Shown: positions 5,601 to 24,472 of the stretch, piece by piece
Layout of the letters: each line of letters begins with the position of its first letter
Numbering within the stretch: the stretch's first letter is position 1
Source of the DNA: a virus
Length of the DNA stretch: 24,472 nucleotides
IMG/VR virus record: IMGVR_UViG_3300037108_000063
Location: 1-24,472 of that record
Strand: one strand, 5' to 3'
Translations under genes and position numbers: made by a program
Notes under the pieces: model-generated
Told to the model about the DNA's origin: nothing
The model's input: only the letters and a program-made list of their open reading frames with translations
The model's database searches: none

Positions 5601-6070
5601 TCGACACCTCTGTGCTGGTAGACAACTTCGTCGTTGTCCTGCGCGACATACCCGAACTGGTCGAGGAGATGGGCGGCGATCCGGAGCGGATCTACGCCTA
5701 CCACGACCAGTACCCGAAGAAAGTAAGTCTGGCGCACGCCATCCACCAGATGCCCGCACCGTCGATCATGGCGGTGTGGCAGGGCACGGCGCCCGGCGCG
5801 TTCGGCGGGTTCGATGTGTGGAAGCATCAGGTCACGTTGTTCCTGCGTGCGCGGGAGACATTCGATGGCGAGCCGCCGACTCCGTATCAACGGATGTTCC
5901 GGCTCATCACCAAAGGCGCTCCGGCCGCGAGCGGTGTGGCGATGAACGTGGTGACCGTTCACCCCAATTGCTACCCGATGGACCTCCCGTCGATCGGGCG
6001 GCAGACGGATGCGGAGGGACTGGACTATTTCGAAGTGCCCATCACATTTACGGAGATAGGCGATGAATGA
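5597..6070 (+). CDS. Tail terminator-like protein, U-like position
   Basis: The product has 157 residues. The gene starts at the ATGA overlap with the Z-like gene and precedes the tail tube gene, where lambda U and related terminators lie. Terminators form a ring that caps the finished tube and meets the neck. Visible features are an N-terminal helix (TSVLVDNFVVVLRDIPELVEEM), then short strands such as 'APSIMAVWQGTAP', 'KHQVTLFLRAR' and 'YFEVPITFTEIGDE'. A helix-plus-beta-sheet layout ending in a strand suits the terminator fold. There is no diagnostic motif, so the name comes from size and position. Confidence 0.58.
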   Translation: MIDTSVLVDNFVVVLRDIPELVEEMGGDPERIYAYHDQYPKKVSLAHAIHQMPAPSIMAVWQGTAPGAFGGFDVWKHQVTLFLRARETFDGEPPTPYQRMFRLITKGAPAASGVAMNVVTVHPNCYPMDLPSIGRQTDAEGLDYFEVPITFTEIGDE

Positions 6071-6227
6071 ACCGACCCGCGTTTGGATGCGCCCACCCTG
6101 GGGGCGCGGTGAGCCGAAAGAGGTTGATGCGACGCCCGACGTGCTCACGCCCCTCATGATTTCCGGCTGGGCTCAGTGCGAGCCGCCGACCAACGAGCAG
6201 GAGGTAACGACCAATGTCCACGACTAG
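6063..6227 (+). CDS. Small hypothetical tail-region protein (54 aa)
   Basis: This short ORF overlaps the terminator gene by 8 bases and the tail tube start by 14 bases. It has GGAG about 8 bases before its ATG. It reads MNEPTRVWMRPPWGRGEPKE in its first part, then VDATPDVLTPLMISGWAQCE, then a polar end. The 'V-W-M-x-x-P-x-G-x-G-E-P-x-E-V-x-A-T-x-x-x-L-x-P-L-M-x-x-G-W' pattern looks like a genuine small domain rather than random translation. Similar short proteins that end in a 'G-W' motif occur beside phage tail genes. The tail tube ribosome site lies within it, so its translation may help load the next gene. Function unknown. Confidence 0.6.
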   Translation: MNEPTRVWMRPPWGRGEPKEVDATPDVLTPLMISGWAQCEPPTNEQEVTTNVHD

Positions 6228-7254
6228 GCTGCAAGAGGTCCTGGTCTGCTTCGGGAAGAAGAAGCAGGCCGATATCGCGACGGCGCAGGTTGCCGCCGAC
6301 ATGTGGCGGTTCAGCAAGTTGAACGCCGCGCTCGCGAATCCGAAACTTGCGACCGAAAACGACGCCGAGGAGTACGGCAAGGGCCACGAGTTCCCGACCG
6401 CCACGTTCAAGACGGCATGGGACGTGGGCGCCACGCTGGAGAAGTATCTCAGTGCGGAGATCGGTGCGTGGGCGGTCGCGTTCGCGTTGGGCAAGGTTGT
6501 CAAGAGCGGTGCTGGCCCGTACGTGTACACCTGCACTCCGCTCATGCCTGCGGCTGGCGATGCCGCGGAGTTGCCGTACCTCTCCTACGTCGAGCAGATC
6601 CGGCCTGGCGGCGGCGTCGTCCTCGACCGGCAGGCGGTCGGCCTGGCTGTCGAGGGGTTCCAGATCACCGTTGGCTCCGGTCCTGGCCGCGCCAACAGCA
6701 AGATCAGCGTCGAGTTGGTCGGGTCCGGCAAGGTCATCGACTCCGCGACCGGCATTACGATGCCCGCCGCGACCACGGAGAAGCTCCTGCCCTCCGCTTC
6801 GTTGACGCTCTCGATCAACGGCGTGGACTATGTGACCAACAAGAACATCGTCTCCCTGGAAACGGGCTGGAAGAACAACATCCGGATGGACGCAGGCTTC
6901 TTCCCCGGCTCCGGCTTCCAGACGGCGGGCGACGGGTCCACCGGCGCGATCCGCGGCAGGCTGGAATTTGGCAATCGCGTCGGCAATCTGAAGTTCGTCG
7001 CGCGGTTCATGAACGGGTCGGACGAGTACACGAAGCTCAAGGCGCAGACCGCCGGCACGGCGGTCGTGACGCTGGCGTACGACGCGAACAACTCGCTCCA
7101 GTTGACGTGGCAGCAGGTCACCTACTCCGTGGTGGAGATCGCGGAGACGGACCAGATCCTCACGGTCGCGGTCGAGTGCCTGCCGATGTACCACGTCACG
7201 AACGGCATCCTCACGGCGGTCGGCAAGACGGTCGTGGACGCAATCTGCTCATAA
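6214..7254 (+). CDS. Major tail tube protein
   Basis: The product has 346 residues. AGGAGGT at 6199-6205, 8 bases before the ATG, is the strongest ribosome site in the window and fits a protein needed in many copies. The sequence is beta-rich with regularly spaced Gly: 'TATFKTAWDVGATLEKYLSAEIGAWAVAFALG', 'QAVGLAVEGFQITVGSGPG', 'NKNIVSLETGWKNNIRMDAG' and 'RGRLEFGNRVGNLKFVARFM'. This resembles the phage tail tube families in which stacked rings surround the DNA channel. It is longer than lambda gpV (246) but within the range of larger tube proteins. It lies directly before the chaperone pair and tape measure, as expected. Confidence 0.8.
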   Translation: MSTTRLQEVLVCFGKKKQADIATAQVAADMWRFSKLNAALANPKLATENDAEEYGKGHEFPTATFKTAWDVGATLEKYLSAEIGAWAVAFALGKVVKSGAGPYVYTCTPLMPAAGDAAELPYLSYVEQIRPGGGVVLDRQAVGLAVEGFQITVGSGPGRANSKISVELVGSGKVIDSATGITMPAATTEKLLPSASLTLSINGVDYVTNKNIVSLETGWKNNIRMDAGFFPGSGFQTAGDGSTGAIRGRLEFGNRVGNLKFVARFMNGSDEYTKLKAQTAGTAVVTLAYDANNSLQLTWQQVTYSVVEIAETDQILTVAVECLPMYHVTNGILTAVGKTVVDAICS

Positions 7255-12374: not shown

Positions 12375-13583
12375 ATGGCCGACAACATCACCATCAAGGA
12401 TTCGTCCAATGCCGTGATTCCGGTCGCGACCGAAGATATCGGTGGCGGGGTGGAAGTACAACGCGTAAAGCTGATGCTTGGCGCTCACGGGCAGGACGGC
12501 GGCGATGTCGCGGGCCCGAATCCGCTTCCCGTAGAGGTTCAAAACACCACGGACACGGACAGCCCAGTGTGGGGGAACCAGGGGCCGCTCACGCAGGACG
12601 CGCGGGAGCAATCCAATTACGATTCGGTAAATCCGCTTCTCACGAGAGATACGCACCTCGGTCGTGTTTTGGGCCAGGACCTCCTCGTGAATCCTTCCAC
12701 CAAGAGGTTGCAGGTCGAGAGTGCGCCGGTCGCGGATAACAGCGTGTTCGGGTTCCTGCCTGCGCTGAACACGGATTTGACCGTCGTTCTCAACGGGGCG
12801 ACCACGCTTCTCCTTCAACTCACCGGCACCTGGGCCGGTACGGTATCGTTCGAGGCCACCCCGGACTCCCAGAACTGGTACGCGGTGTATGGCCAGCGTC
12901 CGGATGTGGTGACGACGATGGTTGTGAACACAACGGTGATCGGTGTCTGGGTTTTCTCCGTTGGCGGGTTCCGGGCATTCCGTGCCAGGTTCAGCGCGTA
13001 CACATCAGGCGTCGTGAAGGCGATGGCCGCGACTTCCGTCAACGGCAGATTTGCAACCACGGTGACCGTGAACGGAACGGTTGGCGTCACGGGCTTCACT
13101 GTTCGAACCACTGGCTCTGAGCTGCTGACGTCGGATTCCGGAGTTGTCCAGTTACAGAACGCCCTCGTGGAGCCGACTCCGTGGAACCCCAGGTGGGCGT
13201 TTTACGTGTACGGCGATGCGGTCACATGGAACGGACAGGTGTACCAGTGCATCGTTCCGACAACTGGAGTTAGTCCACCTCCTTATCCGAACAACGCCAC
13301 CTATTGGCAGGTCGATCAGCGCCAGAACAAGTCCCTGGTGACCAGCAGTTACGTGTCTCCTCCTGCCGCTGCCAGACTCCGCGTCGAAATCGACCTGGAC
13401 GCGTACCAGTACAGGCTGGCGGAATCGATGTTGGCGGCAAAGCAGCAGCAAGAAGTATCGGATCTGCTGTTTCAGGAGCGCCAGTTGTTCCTGATGCAGC
13501 AGGGGGTGTCGGGGTTGTGCGGCTCCAATTTTGCTATGGGCGCGAGCGGGATGTCCGCTTACGCCATTGAAGAATTCAGATAA
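12375..13583 (+). CDS. Tail/fibre-associated structural protein with a chitin-binding-type module
   Basis: The product has 402 residues. GGAGG at 12361-12365 precedes the ATG. Residues 1-60 (MADNITIKDSSNAVIPVATE, then HGQDGGDVAGPNPLPV) look like the start of phage decoration or fibre proteins. A beta-sandwich region follows (GATTLLLQLTGTWAGTVSFE, DSQNWYAVYG, VWVFSVGGFRAFRARFSAY). Residues 270-316 read 'YVYGDAVTWNGQVYQCIVPT' and end in 'NNATYWQVDQ'. The 'Y-x-x-G-D-x-V-x-x-N-G-x-x-Y-x-C ... P-x-x-x-x-x-Y-W' layout is that of carbohydrate-binding modules of family 5/12. The C-terminal 70 residues are helical and Gln-rich. A surface role in glycan contact is inferred; the core family is not recognised. 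Confidence 0.62.
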   Translation: MADNITIKDSSNAVIPVATEDIGGGVEVQRVKLMLGAHGQDGGDVAGPNPLPVEVQNTTDTDSPVWGNQGPLTQDAREQSNYDSVNPLLTRDTHLGRVLGQDLLVNPSTKRLQVESAPVADNSVFGFLPALNTDLTVVLNGATTLLLQLTGTWAGTVSFEATPDSQNWYAVYGQRPDVVTTMVVNTTVIGVWVFSVGGFRAFRARFSAYTSGVVKAMAATSVNGRFATTVTVNGTVGVTGFTVRTTGSELLTSDSGVVQLQNALVEPTPWNPRWAFYVYGDAVTWNGQVYQCIVPTTGVSPPPYPNNATYWQVDQRQNKSLVTSSYVSPPAAARLRVEIDLDAYQYRLAESMLAAKQQQEVSDLLFQERQLFLMQQGVSGLCGSNFAMGASGMSAYAIEEFR

Positions 13584-15171: not shown

Positions 15172-15654
15172 GTGAACAAGGATCGGGACCGGCGGCTCGC
15201 GGACGTCGCCCGGATCGCGGTGCGTATCGAAGCCGAAACCGGGTGCCCCGCGAGGTTGCTCATCGCGCAGTGGGCGATGGAGTCGGAGTGGGGGGCCAAG
15301 CCCGCCGGGGCGGCAAACTACTTCGGAATCAAAAAGGCCAGCCGCCACGAGAAGTGTTGCATCGTCACGACGCAGGAGGTTGTGGCGGGCAAGCGAATCG
15401 AGCAGAAACTCCAGTTCGCGGATTACGACTCCCTGGAGGCGTCGTGCCACGACTATGCGTGGTTGATCACCCGCGGGGCGCCGTATGCCGTCGCGTGGGC
15501 GCACTACCAGAAGACCCGCGATCTTCCAGCGTTGATCGCTGCGGTCGCCGGTGCGTACGCGACCGACCCGAACTACAAGGCTCTGGCCACGAGCATCGCA
15601 TACCAATCGAATGTGGTGGCGGCGATCGATGCCGCGAGGACTGTCCGTGTCTGA
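15172..15654 (+). CDS. FlgJ-type glucosaminidase (peptidoglycan hydrolase)
   Basis: The product has 160 residues. I use the GTG at 15172, with GGAGG 9 bases upstream; the longer in-frame ORF from 15118 overlaps the adaptor gene. The family cuts the glycan strands of peptidoglycan. Conserved features are 'LLIAQWAMESEWGAKPAG' with the probable catalytic Glu37, 'ANYFGIK' at about 47-53, and 'YATDPNYKALATSI' near 129-142. The last is the family's 'Y-A-T-D-P-x-Y' motif. There is no signal peptide or binding module. It lies among tail genes, near where lambda has the K peptidase, and no holin is beside it, so a virion-associated enzyme that opens the wall during injection is more likely than the lysis endolysin. 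Confidence 0.85.
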   Translation: MNKDRDRRLADVARIAVRIEAETGCPARLLIAQWAMESEWGAKPAGAANYFGIKKASRHEKCCIVTTQEVVAGKRIEQKLQFADYDSLEASCHDYAWLITRGAPYAVAWAHYQKTRDLPALIAAVAGAYATDPNYKALATSIAYQSNVVAAIDAARTVRV

Positions 15655-18600
15655 CACCATCGGCAACATCACCGTTCCGGAGATCGCCGTCTCGAGCACG
15701 TTCCCCATCGTGCCCGAGTACCCATACGGCCGCGCCAGGCATCCGGACGTGACCATCCACCAGTTCGGGTCGGGCAACGCGAAGATCGAGCAGCGCTTCC
15801 TCCTGGGGGCGGGCGCGCGGCGGTTCACCGTTCGGCGCACGTGGATGAACGACACCCAGCGCATCGCTCTCCGGAATTTTTGGGAGTCGAAGTATGGACC
15901 GTACGGCGCGTTCACCTACAACGCGCCCAATGACGACGGCAACGGAACGACCGCAATCACCTGCCGGTTTGAGAACGAGCCTTTGTCCTGGGCGATGGTC
16001 GCAGACTGGATCTGCTCCATCGGCGTGACGCTGGTCGAGATCCCCGCCGCGACTCCGGCCTACACGCTCAACTCGACCAGCACCCGCTTCCCGTCTGCGC
16101 CCCTCCAGACCGCGCTGCTCTCGCAGGTCCAGCAGGTCGTTCCGCTCATCAAGATCCAGCCTTTACATGCTGGGTATCCCGCGATCTATCTCTCCGACCG
16201 GCGTTGCACTGTGGACGTGCAACTCTACCAGGCGCGGCTGATCGACTTCGATGGCATCTCGCAGGGTATGGGCAACGAGTCCGACGACGCCTCGTTCACG
16301 TTCGGGAACGCCGACCGGGTGATGCGCGACCTCGCCAACGACGTGGACCTTTACCGCGCGACGATCGCGTTCTCCCTGTTCCATGTGGGTACGGGAGTCA
16401 AGGTCGATCTCTGGAAGGGCGATATCGTCAACTGGTCCTGCGATGCTGGCCCGGAGTTCAAGGTCACCGGGTCCGATGGCCTGTACGAGTTGAACCTGCC
16501 GTACCCGACGCGCAAAATCTCGCGCACCTGCTGGAAGGCGTTCAACTCGCAGGCGTGCCCCTACGCCGACCACGGCGCGATGGATCTGGTTCATTTCCCC
16601 GACGCCGCCGCCAACTCCTGCGACAAGAATTACGACACGCCGAGCGGGTGCCTCGCGCACGGGATGAAGCGTTATTACGGCGGCATCATCGCCGTGCCGC
16701 AGGGCGTCCGGATCAAGGACAACTCGACCGGCGTGTGGGGCTTTGGCCGGTCCATGCTCACCAGCGTGTCGCTGGTCGCGGATTCGATTTACGACCAAGT
16801 GCTCGCGGAGGTGTACACGGACACCGAGATGCCGGTCAACTGCAAGGTGGCGGCGGGCCGGGACGAGAGCGACTTCTACGAGGCGTTGGGCATCGTGGGC
16901 GAAGGGCCGCTCGTGGCGTACACGCCAACTCATTACGAGGACAAGGACGGCGACGGCAACGCAGAGACGCTGGTGGGCCACACGCTCGACGGGCAGGCGC
17001 ATCACGGCTTCCCCAAGAACGACCTCGGCCTCCGGACGGTGCTAGGCACCGATCCGGCCGGCGCGGGCGACTTCTTCTCCCTCGACCAATCCGGCAACCT
17101 GACGGGCGGCGACTTTCGGAAGGTCTACTCCGGCAACTCGACGCTCCTGGACAACTTCGCGGCCGGCACGGCGTTCATCGTGATCCGCAGGTCGGACGCG
17201 AAGGGCCTCCAACTCTCCAGCCCCGGCGACCACGCGATGATCGCGACGGTCGCGCAGGGTTTGAGCGGCTGGGTGTGGACCAGCCCCGGCGTGCGCGTGT
17301 ACGGGCCGTGCATGGTGAACCCGGTCTGGATCGCGGTCAACATGGTCTTCCGTGCGCGCGGCCTCCGGCTTGGCGCGGACGCGACGACCGCACAGTTGAA
17401 CGCCGCCGAAGCGTTGTTCGACGTGCAGGCGGCGATCGACGCAGCCGCGATTTGCAACGACTCCGTTACCAAGATGGTCGGCGTCGGCACGGAGACGCAG
17501 TTCGCGTTCCGCGGCACGCTCCAGGAGGAGAAGCCTCTGCGGGACTGGCTCCAGGAAGTCCTGATGAACTGCCTCGGCTATTACACGTTCTCGTTCGGGA
17601 AGCTCCGGATCGGTATCCGCGAGAACAGCAGCGTGGTTGAGGCGTTCACGGAGGGCAACATCCTGTTCCGCAGCCTGCAACTGGCTCCGGCCAAGCCGTC
17701 TTTCAACCACCTGACGGCCAACTTCGCGGACCAGGACTTCGCGTTCGTGAACAACAGCGTGGCGGTGTACGACATCGACCACGCCTCCTACATTGGCGGC
17801 GGCGCGGGACCGATGTATTTGAAGTCGAGCGTCAACCTCTGCGGCACGTCCACCAAGAGCCAGGCCGCGCGGATCGTCAGCACCCGACTGCGCGAGGAGT
17901 TGGGCGGGACCAGCGCAGCGGAGTGGAAAGCCGCCCGCCAGATCGGGTTCAAGACCACGGCGCTCGCGCTCAATACCGAGCCGGGGATGGTCTGCTCGAT
18001 GACCCATGCGGACATGCCCGGTGGCGCCGGGGAGTTCCGGGTCGTCTCCTGGAAGCTCAACAAGGACTTCTCTATCGACGTGCAAGGCCGCACGACCACG
18101 GACTCGATGTACGACCTCGTGGCGGGACCGAAGCCCGCCGACGTGGAACCGACGCCCGTGCCGGAGGAGATCCTGTACGACACCGGGGTGCCGGGAATGG
18201 TCCTGGGCACGACGAAGCTCTCCGACTATGGGACGTTCGTGCTGGACGAGATGGAGGTGGAACCGGACGACGCCGGGAACATGAACATCGTCTCCGCGCA
18301 CGAGATCGCCATGATGCTCTATTACGTGGACGAACTGGCGGTCGATCTGTGGGCCAGCATCGACGACGCCGTCGACAAGGACACCGATCCGGTTACGGTG
18401 GCTTGCACGGTAAACCCGGCGACGGCGCGCGTGTTCCGGGTGGGCGACTTCGTGATGTTCAACGACGAGGCGAAGAGTCCGGACGTTGGGTATCGCCGGT
18501 CGTACGAGTGTGCGCAGATCGTCGGGCCCGGTAGCGAGGGCGACGTGGTGCCGACCGGCAACTTCCAGTTGGCGAGGCGTTGGGCCGACGACACCCGCCC

Positions 18601-19507
18601 GGACTTCGCGTGCTTCGAAACGCTCCGGACGCCGCACGAGAAGGGCATCCGGTTCTTCAAGCTCGACAGCAAGACGTTCACGTTCAGCGTCAAGAAGGGA
18701 TTCTTCCGGACGCCCGGACTCCCGGCGCGGATCGAGGCGAAGCTCCCCACAGCCTGCGTGGTCGCGGCGGTCGTCGGCGTGGCCAACAACTTCGGGTACG
18801 GCACATTCAGGACGTTCCCGCTGGGCCACCACAGCGAGCCTTTCATGCCTGGCGACCGGACGTGCAACGGCGGCGCATACACGTTCCAGATCCCCGGCGC
18901 GCTCGCGGTCGCGGACACGGTGGTGATCCCGATGCGCGTGCAGGATAGTGCGTCGATTCGGTGCATCTATGCGTACGTCCAGGTGCCCACCACGGACGGC
19001 CAGAGCGCGTACCGCGTAAAGGTGTCCCGCGACGACGGCGCGACGTGGGAACTGCTGGAGTACATGGGCATCGCGCAGAAGCTCCCCGATGGGTACAAGA
19101 ACACCTATGACTGGCTTGTGGACGGCGGGTACGGCAAGCCCGCTACGCGCCGCCTGCCGTACAACGACTTCGGCATCTTCTTCATCCAGGACGTGGTGCT
19201 GGGTGTGGGCCAGCAGACCGTCAACACGGCGTCGTACGGCGCGAACCGGCTGGGCTTCGATGTGGGCGAGTTCGTCCACATCAACCTCGGCCAAGCAGAC
19301 GAGGAGTATGTCCAGGTGCTCGCCGCCGACCAGAACGCGCAGACGTTCGACGCGATCTTCACGAAGAACCACAGTATCGGCGCTACCGTGCGTCCGACCA
19401 TCTGGCCGACTCCGATCCTCAACGAGGGCGACAGCCTCGCGTTCGATATCCTGGCGGTCGCCAACCCGGACCCTGGCAGCGACCTGACCGTGGTGATTCA
19501 GACATGA
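15647..19507 (+). CDS. Giant tail-tip hub protein: fused M-, L- and J-like modules
   Basis: The product has 1286 residues. Preferred start is GTG 15647 (overlap of 8 bases with the lysin stop; GAGGAC upstream); an ATG at 15629 is an alternative. Residues 15-130 resemble gpM ('RFTVRRTWMNDTQRIALRNF', 'KYGPYGAFTYNAP'). Residues 175-400 resemble gpL/DUF2163 (CTVDVQLYQARLIDFDG; FTFGNADRVMRDL). They carry Cys295, Cys304, Cys325 and Cys335; the C-x8-C spacing and following 'C-P-Y' match the gpL iron-sulfur ligands. Residues 580-850 resemble the J hub ('LRDWLQEVLMNCLGYYTFSF', 'GKLRIGIRENS'). The remaining 430 residues are beta-rich and unassigned. In lambda these are separate genes forming the tail tip that contacts the receptor. 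No K- or I-like gene is seen between them. Confidence 0.82.
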   Translation: MSDTIGNITVPEIAVSSTFPIVPEYPYGRARHPDVTIHQFGSGNAKIEQRFLLGAGARRFTVRRTWMNDTQRIALRNFWESKYGPYGAFTYNAPNDDGNGTTAITCRFENEPLSWAMVADWICSIGVTLVEIPAATPAYTLNSTSTRFPSAPLQTALLSQVQQVVPLIKIQPLHAGYPAIYLSDRRCTVDVQLYQARLIDFDGISQGMGNESDDASFTFGNADRVMRDLANDVDLYRATIAFSLFHVGTGVKVDLWKGDIVNWSCDAGPEFKVTGSDGLYELNLPYPTRKISRTCWKAFNSQACPYADHGAMDLVHFPDAAANSCDKNYDTPSGCLAHGMKRYYGGIIAVPQGVRIKDNSTGVWGFGRSMLTSVSLVADSIYDQVLAEVYTDTEMPVNCKVAAGRDESDFYEALGIVGEGPLVAYTPTHYEDKDGDGNAETLVGHTLDGQAHHGFPKNDLGLRTVLGTDPAGAGDFFSLDQSGNLTGGDFRKVYSGNSTLLDNFAAGTAFIVIRRSDAKGLQLSSPGDHAMIATVAQGLSGWVWTSPGVRVYGPCMVNPVWIAVNMVFRARGLRLGADATTAQLNAAEALFDVQAAIDAAAICNDSVTKMVGVGTETQFAFRGTLQEEKPLRDWLQEVLMNCLGYYTFSFGKLRIGIRENSSVVEAFTEGNILFRSLQLAPAKPSFNHLTANFADQDFAFVNNSVAVYDIDHASYIGGGAGPMYLKSSVNLCGTSTKSQAARIVSTRLREELGGTSAAEWKAARQIGFKTTALALNTEPGMVCSMTHADMPGGAGEFRVVSWKLNKDFSIDVQGRTTTDSMYDLVAGPKPADVEPTPVPEEILYDTGVPGMVLGTTKLSDYGTFVLDEMEVEPDDAGNMNIVSAHEIAMMLYYVDELAVDLWASIDDAVDKDTDPVTVACTVNPATARVFRVGDFVMFNDEAKSPDVGYRRSYECAQIVGPGSEGDVVPTGNFQLARRWADDTRPDFACFETLRTPHEKGIRFFKLDSKTFTFSVKKGFFRTPGLPARIEAKLPTACVVAAVVGVANNFGYGTFRTFPLGHHSEPFMPGDRTCNGGAYTFQIPGALAVADTVVIPMRVQDSASIRCIYAYVQVPTTDGQSAYRVKVSRDDGATWELLEYMGIAQKLPDGYKNTYDWLVDGGYGKPATRRLPYNDFGIFFIQDVVLGVGQQTVNTASYGANRLGFDVGEFVHINLGQADEEYVQVLAADQNAQTFDAIFTKNHSIGATVRPTIWPTPILNEGDSLAFDILAVANPDPGSDLTVVIQT

Positions 19508-19884
19508 AGAGTTATCGATGATCGACTTGGGAGCCCAAACTCCCGGATCGCCCACGACCCTGGAGTTGGTTAGCCGGTGCAACGGCCTTCCTGCCACCTC
19601 CGCAGAAAGCACAGGGCCCCCCGTAGCCGCTTCGCCAGTAGTGGACTTGACGACTTCGGCGATGCCGAACGAGTACTGCACAACAACCGTCACTTCCTCG
19701 AACGGTTTGAACGGGCTCGTCACCCCCGGTGGCCTCGCTCCGGCTGGTGGCACCTGTGGCGGCTGGCTAGGTCGCTACCATGCTGCCCTGAGCCCTGAGC
19801 AAGGCGACGCGCCAAGCTCTGGAATTGCAGGTTGATCGACACGATCGACGAGCGATAGACAACAGCCCCAATGTCAGTGAATTC
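19508..19884 (+). other. Junction between tail-tip gene and inserted reverse-strand gene
   Basis: This 377-base stretch separates the hub stop from the 3' end of the reverse-strand gene. It starts with an ATGA overlap (ATG at 19504) that would be a typical start for the next tail gene, but that frame stops after five codons (M-K-S-Y-R). The rest holds one doubtful ORF (19518-19835) and no recognisable promoter, terminator or mobile-element end. It looks like a junction left by gene insertion or exchange. Confidence 0.4.
19518..19835 (+). CDS. Doubtful small ORF (105 aa) in the junction region
   Basis: The ORF starts 10 bases after the hub stop with a weak GAAGAG signal 6 bases upstream. The translation begins MIDLGAQTPGSPTTLELVSR and is rich in Ser, Thr, Pro and Gly, with no motif, membrane segment or family I recognise. 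Third-position G/C is less marked than in the neighbouring phage genes. It could be a real small gene, the broken beginning of an older tail gene, or non-coding. An antisense frame through the same bases is also open, so openness alone is weak evidence here. Confidence 0.25.
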   Translation: MIDLGAQTPGSPTTLELVSRCNGLPATSAESTGPPVAASPVVDLTTSAMPNEYCTTTVTSSNGLNGLVTPGGLAPAGGTCGGWLGRYHAALSPEQGDAPSSGIAG

Positions 19885-21576
19885 TCACTCGGCAGGCGGG
19901 TGCGAGACTGTGGCCTCCACGCGAGTTAGGTAAATCGACTTTCGCCCAGCTGTCGTCGAAAGAACAAGGCTACCTGGGTTCCAGGTGATCGGAAATGTTA
20001 ATTGCACCTTCGTTCCGTCATATGGGACTTTGGCAAATGTTTCCACCTCGGATCGTTCGATTGTCTGGATCAGGTTGGAGATGGAAAATGGAGAGTCGAT
20101 CAGATCTGAATACAACACGCGTTGGAGACAATCAGGCGCGAAAAACCCCTTATCCGAGGGCGCTCCTGAATCTTCATAGAGAACGATGAAGCACTTGATA
20201 TCCTCGATGGAGTACTTCACGTTTTTGGGAGTGATTCGAGTCCAACCGGGAGGCACAAACCAGTCCTTATTGGTGAGCGAATACTCCCAGAACTGGAGGG
20301 CGGCGCTATATTTTTCGCGTACATTGGCTGTAAGCCCATCCGCCAGTGTTGTTAAGTGATCTGCTGCGGAATCCGTTCGAGAGTCGCGCCAAACGCGGGG
20401 CCAATCCAAGACCAAATCGGAGAAGAGCGACAGACCCTTCTCTTTGAGGGGCAGTCGGTACTTGAGTACCGCATCCGGAGGAACCGGAATGTGCAAGGAC
20501 TCAGACTTGAATGACGATCCAAGGGCTACGCCGACCCAATCCGATTGGCCTTCGAGGCGAACCGCTTCGATCAAAGGGCGGCCTAGATACATACCCCTCG
20601 TTTTGTCCAGGAGGGCTTCGCCAACCGACAAAGCACCTCTAAGAGGAAGCCCCAGTGCCATCGCCTCACAAAACACTCTGGCGCAACGGTGGAGAAATTC
20701 TGCAACATGCCCTGGATGATAGTGGACCCACAGCAGCAGGCTGTCGCTAAAATACGCAGTCTGGATAGGCAACCACATTAGCCCGGCCGTCAGTTCACCC
20801 CGCACTTCAGCCAGTGCCAAACTCCACGGCCGCGTTTCGGAGTGCGGAACTAGTGCTACGCGGAGAAGTTGTTCGTATCGGGACGTCAACTCTTCAAGGC
20901 CTATACGTTCCAGCAATGCTTCGAATCCCAGAACATCCAAGAAACCAATTAGATACGGCGCTGGCCTACTTGGATCGGGCACTGTCCCGCCCGATGGTGA
21001 ACCGGCAACCATGTGGAGCAAGTGCACTCCAGGACCGGAAGGAGGTTCATATTCTGGTGGAGCATCTACAAGGTCTCCATTCGAATCAACTCTTGCAATT
21101 AACACGCAGTAAGGGCGTCCAGTTGAGCTCCAGGGAGATTCGGCGGCCAACTCCGGCTGCATCAGGGGATCGACAAGCATCTTTATCCGATACACTTCGT
21201 CCGCGGCGCACAATGCCCATTCGTGCCTGCAAATCTCAACGTACTCGTTTGCAGTGATGCCACGCTTCAGCGCGGCGCCGTTTACCAAGTGATCCCGTAC
21301 CCATATTACGAACGCACTCTCGTCTTTGTCTGTGAAGTGAGCTTCCTGATCTGGGGACATGCTGCCCGCTCCTATTCTGGTCGCTGGAGAATACACGAAA
21401 CCCGCAAAGTCGTCAGCAATAAGGGCCTTTTCGGAAGATACTCTAACCGCGAATGATAACGCGACCGCCTTCGCTCCGCAAACATTCGAGATGATCTGGT
21501 CGTCCGAGATTATCGGCAGTTTGGGAAACCCGGCGTTTGAGCGCTGCCCCATACCGCCGGATCGCTCCCGAATCAC
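19885..21576 (-). CDS. Reverse-strand accessory (moron) gene with a nucleotidyl-cyclase-like domain
   Basis: The product has 563 residues from GTG 21576; ATG 21552 (GGGAG 12 bases upstream) gives 555 and may be the true start. It is the only convincing minus-strand gene, and visibly more AT-rich than its neighbours. Residues 206-395 carry the landmarks of the class III cyclase fold: 'YLIGFLDVLGFEALL' with Asp214, 'YFSDSLLLW' with Asp278 (the two usual metal-binding positions), then 'ALGLPLRGALSVGEALL' and 'MYLGRPLIEAVRLE'. The Asn usual before A-x-R-L is Ile335, while Arg340 is kept. 'YRLPLKEKG' and 'LVLDWPR' close the domain. Residues 20-200 and 396-563 are unrecognised; there is no signal peptide or membrane segment. 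A cyclic-nucleotide or defence role is conjecture; a degenerate regulatory domain is equally possible. Confidence 0.75.
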   Translation of the reverse strand: MIRERSGGMGQRSNAGFPKLPIISDDQIISNVCGAKAVALSFAVRVSSEKALIADDFAGFVYSPATRIGAGSMSPDQEAHFTDKDESAFVIWVRDHLVNGAALKRGITANEYVEICRHEWALCAADEVYRIKMLVDPLMQPELAAESPWSSTGRPYCVLIARVDSNGDLVDAPPEYEPPSGPGVHLLHMVAGSPSGGTVPDPSRPAPYLIGFLDVLGFEALLERIGLEELTSRYEQLLRVALVPHSETRPWSLALAEVRGELTAGLMWLPIQTAYFSDSLLLWVHYHPGHVAEFLHRCARVFCEAMALGLPLRGALSVGEALLDKTRGMYLGRPLIEAVRLEGQSDWVGVALGSSFKSESLHIPVPPDAVLKYRLPLKEKGLSLFSDLVLDWPRVWRDSRTDSAADHLTTLADGLTANVREKYSAALQFWEYSLTNKDWFVPPGWTRITPKNVKYSIEDIKCFIVLYEDSGAPSDKGFFAPDCLQRVLYSDLIDSPFSISNLIQTIERSEVETFAKVPYDGTKVQLTFPITWNPGSLVLSTTAGRKSIYLTRVEATVSHPPAE

Positions 21577-21647
21577 GGCGCTATCCGGACGTAGTTCACA
21601 TGCTGAATTTCGATAGGCCTACCCTGCTCTGAATCCCGGTCACTTAC
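21577..21647. other. Divergent spacer between the moron and the resumed tail genes
   Basis: This 71-base spacer lies upstream of both the reverse-strand gene and the forward gene at 21648. It must hold the start signals of the reverse gene if that gene is transcribed on its own. I see no good sigma70-type -35/-10 pair on either strand and only weak ribosome sites. Confidence 0.4.
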
Positions 21648-24472
21648 ATGGCTGCCGAACCTCTTCGCATCTTCGATCCGCGCCGCAACTTCCAGACGCA
21701 GGGCTTCACCGGGCGTGGCGCGACGACCACGATCCATGACGCGTCCGCGACAGGTGTGTCCGTCTCCGGCATCTTCCAAGCCGCAGAGGACTTCGCTGTG
21801 CTCGGGTTTTACAACGCGTACGATTACTTCAACCACCTGCGCCAGAAACACCTGCCGCGGACGGACCTCTCCGGCCTGACCTTGGAGTTCGATATCGAGT
21901 ACGACCACGCGCTCGATGGCGCGATGCGACTGGACGCCGCCAAGTACCCGTCCGTCTCGTGGGACTCGATGACCTTCGTCTGCGGCAAGGGCGGCGCTGG
22001 CGAGATCCGCGAGGTGAAGCTCCTCTCGTATGCCACGGTGGTGTCCGGAGGCGAGACGCCCGCCAGTGTGAGCGTCGAGGCGTCGGGCACGCAGCCGGAG
22101 TTGGGCGCCGACCACATCGCGGTTACGTTCCGCGACACGGTTTACGATTGCATCCCGTGGGGCAAGCTCTACCAACTGCCCAAGTCGCTCTCCTCACCCA
22201 ACGGCGCCATCGACCTGTGGCCCTCCGATCTCGATCCGGTGACTGGCGAGTTGGAGTTGAAGGTCGGGGATACTGTGTACTTCACGTACGACCCGCTCTA
22301 TCCTGCTGACCCTCCGTACCAGTTGGAAGAGATCTGCCACGTCAGTGGCATAGATCCTGTCTACAAGAACCGCGTGACGTTCGACAACACGCTGCCGCAC
22401 GGCGGGGCGACGATCTGCCGGTCGTACGCGCCGGGACCGTTCAACATCGTGGCGGCGTCGAATGACACGTTGACGTTCATCATCGACGGCACCAGCATTT
22501 ACATCGGCCTGACGGCGGGCGCGGCGCAGACCGCAGATCAGGTCGCCGCCGATATCAACACTGCGGTCGGCGCGGCGGGCCTGGACGCTACTGCTGACAC
22601 CGTGGACGGGTGCGTGCGGATCACTTCCACGAAGCCGGTTGGGGCGGGCGAGCTCGTCGCGTGGGGCGGAACGGGCTTGTCCACTATCGGGTTCGTGCCT
22701 GGAACGTACGCGGGCAGCGGTCCTCAGTTCCACGTCCATGCTCTCGCGACCGCTGAGTCGGCCATCAAGGATCTCGCGGACACGATCAACGGCGGCGGCA
22801 AGAACGTCGTCGTCACCGGACCCGACCAGTCCAGCGTCATTCAGGCGACTGCCACCGGCAAGACGCTCACCATCGCGTTCAAGACCAGCCCGCCGCCCGC
22901 GACGGTCATGGGCAAGTTGGGCAACGGCGAGATCCTTACCGTCCGGTCCTGGCACGAGACGGTCCCGGTAGACGCGCGGGACGCCTCGTACGATGCGTCG
23001 AAGGACGTGCAAGGCGTGACGTTCGGCACGAACCGCAGCATCCGGTTCGCTGGCGGCGACAACGACACCAAGTATCACATCAGCCTCCCGCTGGGCGCGT
23101 TGACCGACAAGAACAGCCAGACGGTTCCCACCGTGGACTGCCGGAAGATGTACATGGTGTTCGCACCACGATTCGAGATCGTGGAGGAGGCGCTGGACGA
23201 CGGGTGCTTCCTGACCGCCGACGTGGGACCGGGCGACACGATCTGGAGCGTAGATAGCGGCGCGGCGTTGACGGGCGGGCGGTACTTCATCGGAGACGCC
23301 ACGACCGAGGAGCGCGTCCTGCTCGTGGCGGGCGGCGCGTCCAGCATCCACGTTCAGCGTGGGTACGAGTCCTCGACGCCTGCCTCCTGGCCTGCGGGCG
23401 CCCGGATGAAGAAGCTCCCGCCGATCTCCGGCTTCCAGTCCGACGTGGAGTGGGGCGCGACCATCTCGAACATCGCAGTCACGGGCGATCGAAGCCTCAA
23501 GGTGGGCGGCGATTCTGCGCGGATCGAGGAGTCCGACAAGCGGTGCCAGTACACCGGCTATTGGGAGGATTACAAGTACGGCGCGACGGGCTGGCCCTCG
23601 CAGTGGTGGAGCAAGGGGCACGCGCGGCGCACCGGCCCGAACGATCTCGCGGACGTGCGCGCGGTCACGATCCAGTACTCTGCCACGGAGGAGCACGAGC
23701 TCTACCTCGGCACGTTCCTGTACGCGGACTGCGGCAAAGTCGGCGTCACCGTGGATGGCGTGGCGCCCGCCGAATCGCCCATCGATCTCTATCTCAACGA
23801 GTACGGCGGCACCACCGCGAGCTTGAAGATCGCGTCCGCAGTCCCGGCAGGGAACCACATCGTCGTCCTGACCGCCCTGTTCGAACGCAACGCCGACAGC
23901 ACCGGGTACTACTTTTACTTCGATTACCTGTGGCCGCTCGTGCCGCAGGACGTTCCGGACCCGCGGAAGGAGTATCCGGACGTGTCGCTGGCCATCGACT
24001 TCGACACCGACCACGGGTACAAGAAGCCCCCGGCCTGGCACCTCTGGCATCTCCAGAAGCTCGGGTTCAAGGGCCACGCCGACGTGTACATGGGCGTCTT
24101 CTGGAACAATAAGCGGCGGCGCGTGGGCGCGAGCTATCCGTACGCGACCATCGAATACCGCCTCGCGGACGGCGTGGCCGCGCCGGTGGCGGGCGACGTT
24201 GTGACGATCCAGGTGTCCGGATCGAGCATGCAGCACACCATCCTGGAGGGCGAGTCCTTGCAGGATATCGTCAACGGGATGCGCGTGCTGATCAACCAAT
24301 TCTCCGGCGTGTGGGCCGACGATAACTACGGGACCAGCACGACCCTCCGCATCCAGTCCAAGGCTCCGTCCTGGTCGTTCCCCGGCATCTGGGTGGACGA
24401 TGGCAAGGCGGAACTTGGCGGCTATGTGAACGAACCGTTCGCTATCACCGCAGGCGTGAACGACGCGCTCCT
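21648..24472 (+). CDS. Large tail-tip/fibre protein, incomplete at the window end
   Basis: The frame is open from ATG 21648 to the last base (941 codons) and continues beyond. The start lacks a clear ribosome site. Composition returns to the high-GC phage pattern. The N-terminal 130 residues contain 'FAVLGFYNAYDYFNHLRQKH' and 'TLEFDIEYDHALDGAMRLDA', a block I take as a particle-attachment domain but cannot name. Three segments resemble the small flagellin/hook-type 'IN' domain: about 272-345 ('TLTFIIDGTSIYIGL' with 'TADQVAADINTAVGAAG'), 361-417 ('AIKDLADTINGGG') and 849-907 ('SLQDIVNGMRVLINQ'). Between them lies a beta-rich middle and an aromatic stretch 'AWHLWHLQKLGFKGHADVYM'. By size and position it is probably the receptor-contact or central fibre protein. 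Confidence 0.72.
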   Translation, partial: MAAEPLRIFDPRRNFQTQGFTGRGATTTIHDASATGVSVSGIFQAAEDFAVLGFYNAYDYFNHLRQKHLPRTDLSGLTLEFDIEYDHALDGAMRLDAAKYPSVSWDSMTFVCGKGGAGEIREVKLLSYATVVSGGETPASVSVEASGTQPELGADHIAVTFRDTVYDCIPWGKLYQLPKSLSSPNGAIDLWPSDLDPVTGELELKVGDTVYFTYDPLYPADPPYQLEEICHVSGIDPVYKNRVTFDNTLPHGGATICRSYAPGPFNIVAASNDTLTFIIDGTSIYIGLTAGAAQTADQVAADINTAVGAAGLDATADTVDGCVRITSTKPVGAGELVAWGGTGLSTIGFVPGTYAGSGPQFHVHALATAESAIKDLADTINGGGKNVVVTGPDQSSVIQATATGKTLTIAFKTSPPPATVMGKLGNGEILTVRSWHETVPVDARDASYDASKDVQGVTFGTNRSIRFAGGDNDTKYHISLPLGALTDKNSQTVPTVDCRKMYMVFAPRFEIVEEALDDGCFLTADVGPGDTIWSVDSGAALTGGRYFIGDATTEERVLLVAGGASSIHVQRGYESSTPASWPAGARMKKLPPISGFQSDVEWGATISNIAVTGDRSLKVGGDSARIEESDKRCQYTGYWEDYKYGATGWPSQWWSKGHARRTGPNDLADVRAVTIQYSATEEHELYLGTFLYADCGKVGVTVDGVAPAESPIDLYLNEYGGTTASLKIASAVPAGNHIVVLTALFERNADSTGYYFYFDYLWPLVPQDVPDPRKEYPDVSLAIDFDTDHGYKKPPAWHLWHLQKLGFKGHADVYMGVFWNNKRRRVGASYPYATIEYRLADGVAAPVAGDVVTIQVSGSSMQHTILEGESLQDIVNGMRVLINQFSGVWADDNYGTSTTLRIQSKAPSWSFPGIWVDDGKAELGGYVNEPFAITAGVNDAL

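Follow-up and report, generated by a model that had tools for sequence, protein, structure and literature searches.

Antiviral hotspots in phages are already known: in P2 and P4 phages, loci of approximately 1-5 kb lie between two conserved phage genes, and the antiviral cargo in them turns over rapidly (Rousset et al. 2022, PMC9122126). Defence cyclases are likewise known, as are the TIR and membrane effectors of the Pycsar system (PMC11224242). The locus described here resembles the P2/P4 hotspots as a small locus between conserved genes with high cargo turnover, and differs from them in its phage lineage, in having two tail genes as borders, and in its indicated Acidobacteriota hosts. The cargo protein studied here resembles Pycsar PycC in its predicted class III nucleotidyl cyclase fold, its two metal-binding Asp residues and its probable antiphage link. 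Unlike PycC, it lacks the PycC signature, has lost the catalytic Asn, carries N- and C-terminal extensions, and has no adjacent PycTIR or PycTM gene. Neither the hotspot of this lineage nor a cyclase-fold family lacking the Asn was found in the open-licence literature searched.

The stretch of DNA analysed (hereafter the window) is 24,472 nucleotides of the IMG/VR record IMGVR_UViG_3300037108_000063, from a soil phage. Positions 19885-21576 on its minus strand contain an open reading frame of 563 codons with a GTG start, located between two plus-strand structural genes. The original prediction had described exactly this 563-codon gene of lower GC on the opposite strand, and its observation was confirmed as a whole; GC declines there from about 0.64 to 0.54. 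Third-position GC was 0.56 in this gene versus 0.88 and 0.87 for the genes on either side, which marks it as foreign. Compared with a homologue from Blastocatellia, pS was saturated at 0.79 and pN was just 0.27, so the reading frame encodes a protein under purifying selection. The upstream flank, hereafter J, is a tail protein (15551-19507, plus strand) that weakly matches 'central tail fiber J' (phrog_31, E 5.6e-5) and has 38 relatives in IMG/VR. The downstream flank (21648-24470, plus strand) is a large late gene of unassigned class; its 941 codons run off the end of the contig, and it has 51 IMG/VR relatives. Further upstream in the window, a 402-aa late gene (12375-13583) showed a weak CBM_5_12 match (E 4e-4) and is possibly a receptor-binding part.

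The true start of the cargo protein is probably the ATG at 21360, which gives a product of 491 aa (19885-21360, minus strand), because a ribosome-binding-site-like AGGAG lies 8 nt upstream (21369-21373, minus strand) and the L001 homology begins at that Met. A Blastocatellia protein of 62% identity aligns from about residue 73 of the 563-aa form onward. The in-frame extension to the GTG (21361-21576, minus strand) has no counterpart in a 405-aa homologue, and its 5' end overlaps an 80-bp flank that also occurs in phage L021, which has a different gene there; it is more likely a 5' leader than protein. The 491-aa form was adopted on the basis of the homologue start, the AGGAG position and this overlap. 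Residue numbers below refer to that form; adding 72 gives the 563-aa numbering.

The gene lies in an inserted segment of about 2.14 kb (19508-21647, GC 0.55) that is missing from L020, the nearest relative phage. L020 DNA is 94.8% identical to the window up to 19497 and 95.2% identical from 21642, and at its empty site the stop codon of J abuts the ATG that starts the following gene. With the flanks 95% identical and the site empty in this nearest relative, the gene is true cargo, as had been proposed when it was called a moron. No relative of the cargo protein occurred at this site in the 38 loci retrieved via J, and an IMG/VR scan with the protein itself gave no relative, so among the records searched it is a singleton at the site between J and the downstream gene (the J/T site). 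A second reading frame in the segment (19518-19835, plus strand) had no family match and looks spurious, which would leave one credible gene. Rfam, tRNA, promoter and terminator searches at the cargo site gave no match. The 80-bp flank (21568-21647) is shared at 84% with L021, which has an unrelated cargo gene, a sign of cargo exchange. The position inside the tail module would suit a structural or late phage gene that is merely inverted, but the gene is missing at the site in all related phages, lies on the opposite strand, has foreign codon use and has its nearest homologue in a bacterial island. That reading is extremely improbable and already refuted by the empty site, and a conserved structural gene was likewise ruled out by the empty sites. 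Comparison with related phages had been proposed in the original prediction, which named a non-cyclase structure and a conserved structural gene as outcomes against it; the gene was absent from those phages and neither outcome was seen.

A census with the relatives of the flanking proteins gave 48 distinct related sites with both flanks. Nine were empty (0-5 bp) and 39 were occupied, with a median of 1,088 bp and cargo on either strand. At these sites the cargo had a mean GC of 0.57, against 0.64 for the upstream sequence. Grouping of the cargo ORFs of at least 100 aa, 44 at the 39 occupied sites, gave 38 families. The J/T site is a hotspot, with varied cargo between two conserved phage genes and with empty sites. 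Several occupants are recognised antiviral systems. A complete CBASS of two genes, a CD-NTase (PADLOC E 2e-123) with a Cap15-type 2TM effector (E 6e-70), occupies one site (L082:8357-9907). Another (L049:15687-16403) encodes a TIR protein (PDC-S35, E 8e-74; Pfam CAP12/Pycsar TIR, E 2e-32) downstream of a 533-aa protein, and a third (L100) encodes a GmrSD protein (HEC-06, E 8e-103). Other cargo includes AIPR/AbiU (L063), a dGTPase-like HD protein (L052), Schlafen AlbA_2 (L074), DUF4238 (L035), NYN (L089) and a LinB-like nucleotidyltransferase (L024). When the cargo of 18 sites including the window was scanned with PADLOC, five sites had matches below E 1e-10, four had weaker matches and nine had none; the matches at E 1e-70 or lower are not chance. 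A recurrent segment of 340-660 bp, 84-95% identical in compared pairs, was also present in the J/T gap of L031, L046, L084, L092, L098 and L105.

The cargo gene is probably a phage-borne antiviral defence gene, because the same spot in relatives is empty or holds other cargo, several of which are recognised as antiviral. We assign a probability of roughly 0.6 to the reading that its product is a defence protein whose core binds nucleotide, whose ends sense or act, and which protects the lysogen from other phages. Against this reading, PADLOC, Pfam and NCBIfam gave no match to the gene, no effector adjoins it, and no promoter match was obtained. Location alone does not prove defence, because half of the scanned sites lacked a PADLOC match and some cargo is not obviously defensive. 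At one site (L095:4695-5887) a MerR-like regulator, a transporter-like membrane protein and a small redox-like protein, all read from sequence, form what looks like a metal-resistance cluster; with this cluster in one phage, the J/T site does not serve defence alone. A radical-SAM-like protein, again read from sequence, is the cargo of L088, and membrane proteins of no known kind are also among the cargo. Such occupants, together with the use of cyclase folds in ordinary signalling, would fit a lysogenic-conversion gene that benefits the host in some way other than defence, for example in stress signalling. We consider this unlikely, as the strongest family matches among the occupants are to antiviral systems and close relatives of the cargo protein lie in islands with restriction-type genes.

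Neither flank had a relative among 50,697 GenBank phages. Among 11 long related contigs, six encode a tyrosine integrase and two a serine recombinase, seven records in total since one (G405) has both; these counts cover the related contigs, the window contig being partial. The lineage is therefore temperate, at least in large part. Of 396 genomes in the phylum to which the Blastocatellia record belongs, one contains a J homologue of 65% identity, which points to Acidobacteriota as the hosts.

The cargo protein has three parts. The N-terminal domain (residues 1-127; 20980-21360, minus strand) was predicted with moderate confidence as alpha/beta (pLDDT mostly 60-92 at residues 11-120). It is 57% identical to the Blastocatellia protein and matches an 834-aa protein from another genome (G076) more weakly, at 36% over 56 residues; a search of plasmids with this part returned nothing. 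The cyclase-fold core spans residues 128-372 (20245-20979, minus strand), and the C-terminal extension spans residues 375-491 plus the stop codon (19885-20238, minus strand). The extension is an orphan predicted at low confidence, and its plasmid search gave chance matches and no significant relative. Regions of about 200 and 165 residues with no recognisable identity had been expected at the two ends. Both ends exist, but the N-terminal one is about 130 residues rather than 200, because the start is probably the ATG at 21360, and the orphan part is the last 115 or so only. The centre of the 491-aa form weakly matched phrog_23933 (E 2.6e-4), and nine of 11 family members gave a match to it. 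This family is like the cargo protein over the core; its 240-position profile spans the core alone, and it has no assigned function.

A phmmer search of the PDB with the whole protein gave chance matches and nothing more. Nearly all PDB matches of the cyclase-fold family profile were class III cyclases, but at E 0.3-2, so evidence from the fold itself was needed. AlphaFold2 with a 19-sequence alignment predicted core residues 134-365 confidently (pLDDT mostly >85) and a disordered-looking tail (pLDDT <50); without an alignment mean pLDDT was 30, and the predicted fold rests on the 19-row alignment. The best Foldseek matches in the PDB were class III cyclases, with Rv1264 at E 3.6e-5 and the class III cyclase-like protein 6yii from Pseudomonas aeruginosa at E 8e-4. 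VIA-align gave a best Z of 13.5 (rmsd 3.0 over 158 residues) to 7yz9, and class III cyclases made up all 50 rows among the matches listed. A fold search of BFVD with the model returned nothing under E 0.001. Independently of the structure, hhalign against 11 acidobacterial PF00211 cyclases aligned the motifs (E 8.4e-5, probability 60). From AlphaFold2 with Foldseek and VIA-align, the core is predicted to have the class III nucleotidyl cyclase fold, as first proposed from the letters.

The residues of the presumed active site were compared with those of class III cyclases (PF00211; Rv1625c, Rv1264). The proteins share the order of strands and helices, the D-D metal pair, the 'R-G-x-x-x-G' strand and the Arg helix position. 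In contrast to those enzymes, the cargo family falls below Pfam detection, has Ile in place of Asn, and has its own invariant Glu and Trp after the helix. The two proposed metal-binding residues, Asp214 and Asp278 of the 563-aa form, are D142 (codon 20935-20937) and D206 (codon 20743-20745). They align with the metal Asp residues D10 and D54 of the PF00211 set and are Asp in 18 of 18 rows. The two motifs named beforehand, LPLRGALSVGE and YLGRPLIEAVRLE, are both present. The substitution noted at the catalytic Asn also held: I264 (codon 20569-20571) aligns with N129, and every row has Ile, Val, Leu or Pro there, so that no family member carries the transition-state Asn of a class III enzyme. 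R268 (codon 20557-20559; all four codons on the minus strand) occupies the catalytic Arg position, at which about half of the rows have Arg and the others Lys, Ser, Glu or Asn. R241, E270 and W275, together with both Asp residues, are the same in every row that includes them. With the Asp residues invariant, the Asn replaced and the Arg variable, the core is likely to bind a nucleotide-metal complex, and ordinary cyclase chemistry in it is uncertain.

These residues bear on how a defence protein of this kind might work. A catalytically dead fold could bind nucleotide as a sensor or switch, with the effect residing in the N- or C-terminal part. The family-wide absence of the Asn alongside invariant metal Asp residues, R241, E270 and W275 would mean that binding was kept and chemistry changed, and the terminal parts differ among relatives (proteins of 491, 405 and 834 aa). 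On the other side, neither end contains a recognised effector motif. The Asn position varies in some class III cyclases, so its loss does not prove inactivity. We regard this reading as tentative. Alternatively, an active stand-alone cyclase could make a cyclic mononucleotide as a Pycsar-like signal, with its receptor elsewhere in the phage or host. The fold, both metal Asp residues, R268 and the presence of 6yii among the Foldseek matches are consistent with this, but the Asn is replaced in every member, the Arg is not conserved, and the cargo gene has no adjacent receptor gene and its family no significant PycC match, which makes the reading rather doubtful. Taking the defence reading by itself, we give about the same probability to an enzyme that is active but has altered chemistry as to a dead switch gated by nucleotide.

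The relatives of the protein are spread over many mobile elements. The closest homologue (62%) lies in Blastocatellia AA13 on a mobile-type island, among tandem paralogues, with a coupling-protein-like ATPase and an ArdC-like antirestriction gene (names read from sequence). This island (L014:9208-18389) holds four cyclase-fold paralogues in 9 kb, one of them a fragment: the 62% homologue, a tandem 241-aa copy that follows it, and two further copies. Two of the four are adjacent in one frame, which is suggestive of heterodimers. The 834-aa relative in another acidobacterial genome begins 67 bp after a SIR2 protein (L016; SIR2_2, E 4e-25), beside an Eco57I-type methylase. Two other relatives adjoin DUF4145 genes (one a strong match, one weak) near an integron-type integrase. 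Among distant members, one is near ThiF/JAB and a TIR-like gene (L156), one is near a possible STAND NTPase (L159), one lies in a TniQ-like element, and some are carried by plasmids, one of which has an annotated Abi gene and a Fic gene. Relatives in L158 and L110 lie beside small membrane-type genes. Other distant members were found as cargo of unrelated phages, some of them P2-like (L112, L113 and L114, around 5977-6819), in which they sit in reverse orientation between tail genes. In Acidobacteriota the family is rare and patchy, with members in five of 396 genomes by single sequence and nine of 396 by profile.

The SIR2, TIR-like and small membrane-type neighbours would suit an active cyclase with a partner. 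The earlier remark that the gene has no partner stands for this site, as no PycTM or PycTIR receptor was found beside it in the inserted segment, but does not extend to relatives, in which the SIR2, TIR-like and DUF4145 genes are candidate partners. The core of the cargo protein had no match to the PADLOC PycC models at E 10, and only one of 20 family members touched one (PDLC00734), at an insignificant E of 0.073. Direct membership of Pycsar was ruled out by this profile scan together with the absent receptor; Pycsar is the wrong label for the cargo protein, though its way of working may be similar. The original interpretation was therefore supported in part. Moron status, fold, metal Asp residues and Asn loss stood, and the defence guess was strengthened by the recognised defence systems of the hotspot.

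Taken as a defence gene, the cargo would be one occupant of a hotspot between two tail genes in a temperate Acidobacteriota phage lineage, carried for the prophage state and presumably expressed in lysogens, where it would most likely shield the lysogen from other phages and thereby the prophage as well. The core would probably bind metal-nucleotide through the two invariant Asp residues, and would either make a nucleotide signal by a chemistry that does without the usual Asn or serve as a switch gated by nucleotide. Sensing of infection, or the effect itself, would fall to the terminal parts.

The family is a sequence-divergent set of cyclase-fold proteins on many mobile elements, without the textbook Asn and with no function in any library searched, and the hotspot, with its 38 cargo families, lies in phages of an ecologically large and poorly cultured phylum. 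It is conceivable, though we advance it with reserve, that these proteins form a new class of antiphage factors that signal with nucleotides or are gated by them, spread by phages, plasmids, integrons and conjugative-type elements and working singly or as paralogue pairs instead of with a Pycsar receptor, and that in uncultured acidobacterial phages the J/T site stores more defence genes still to be discovered. The hotspot provides a short list of candidates, each of one or two genes, ready for testing. Nucleotide-based immune proteins would extend beyond Pycsar and CBASS if the family proves to be antiphage.
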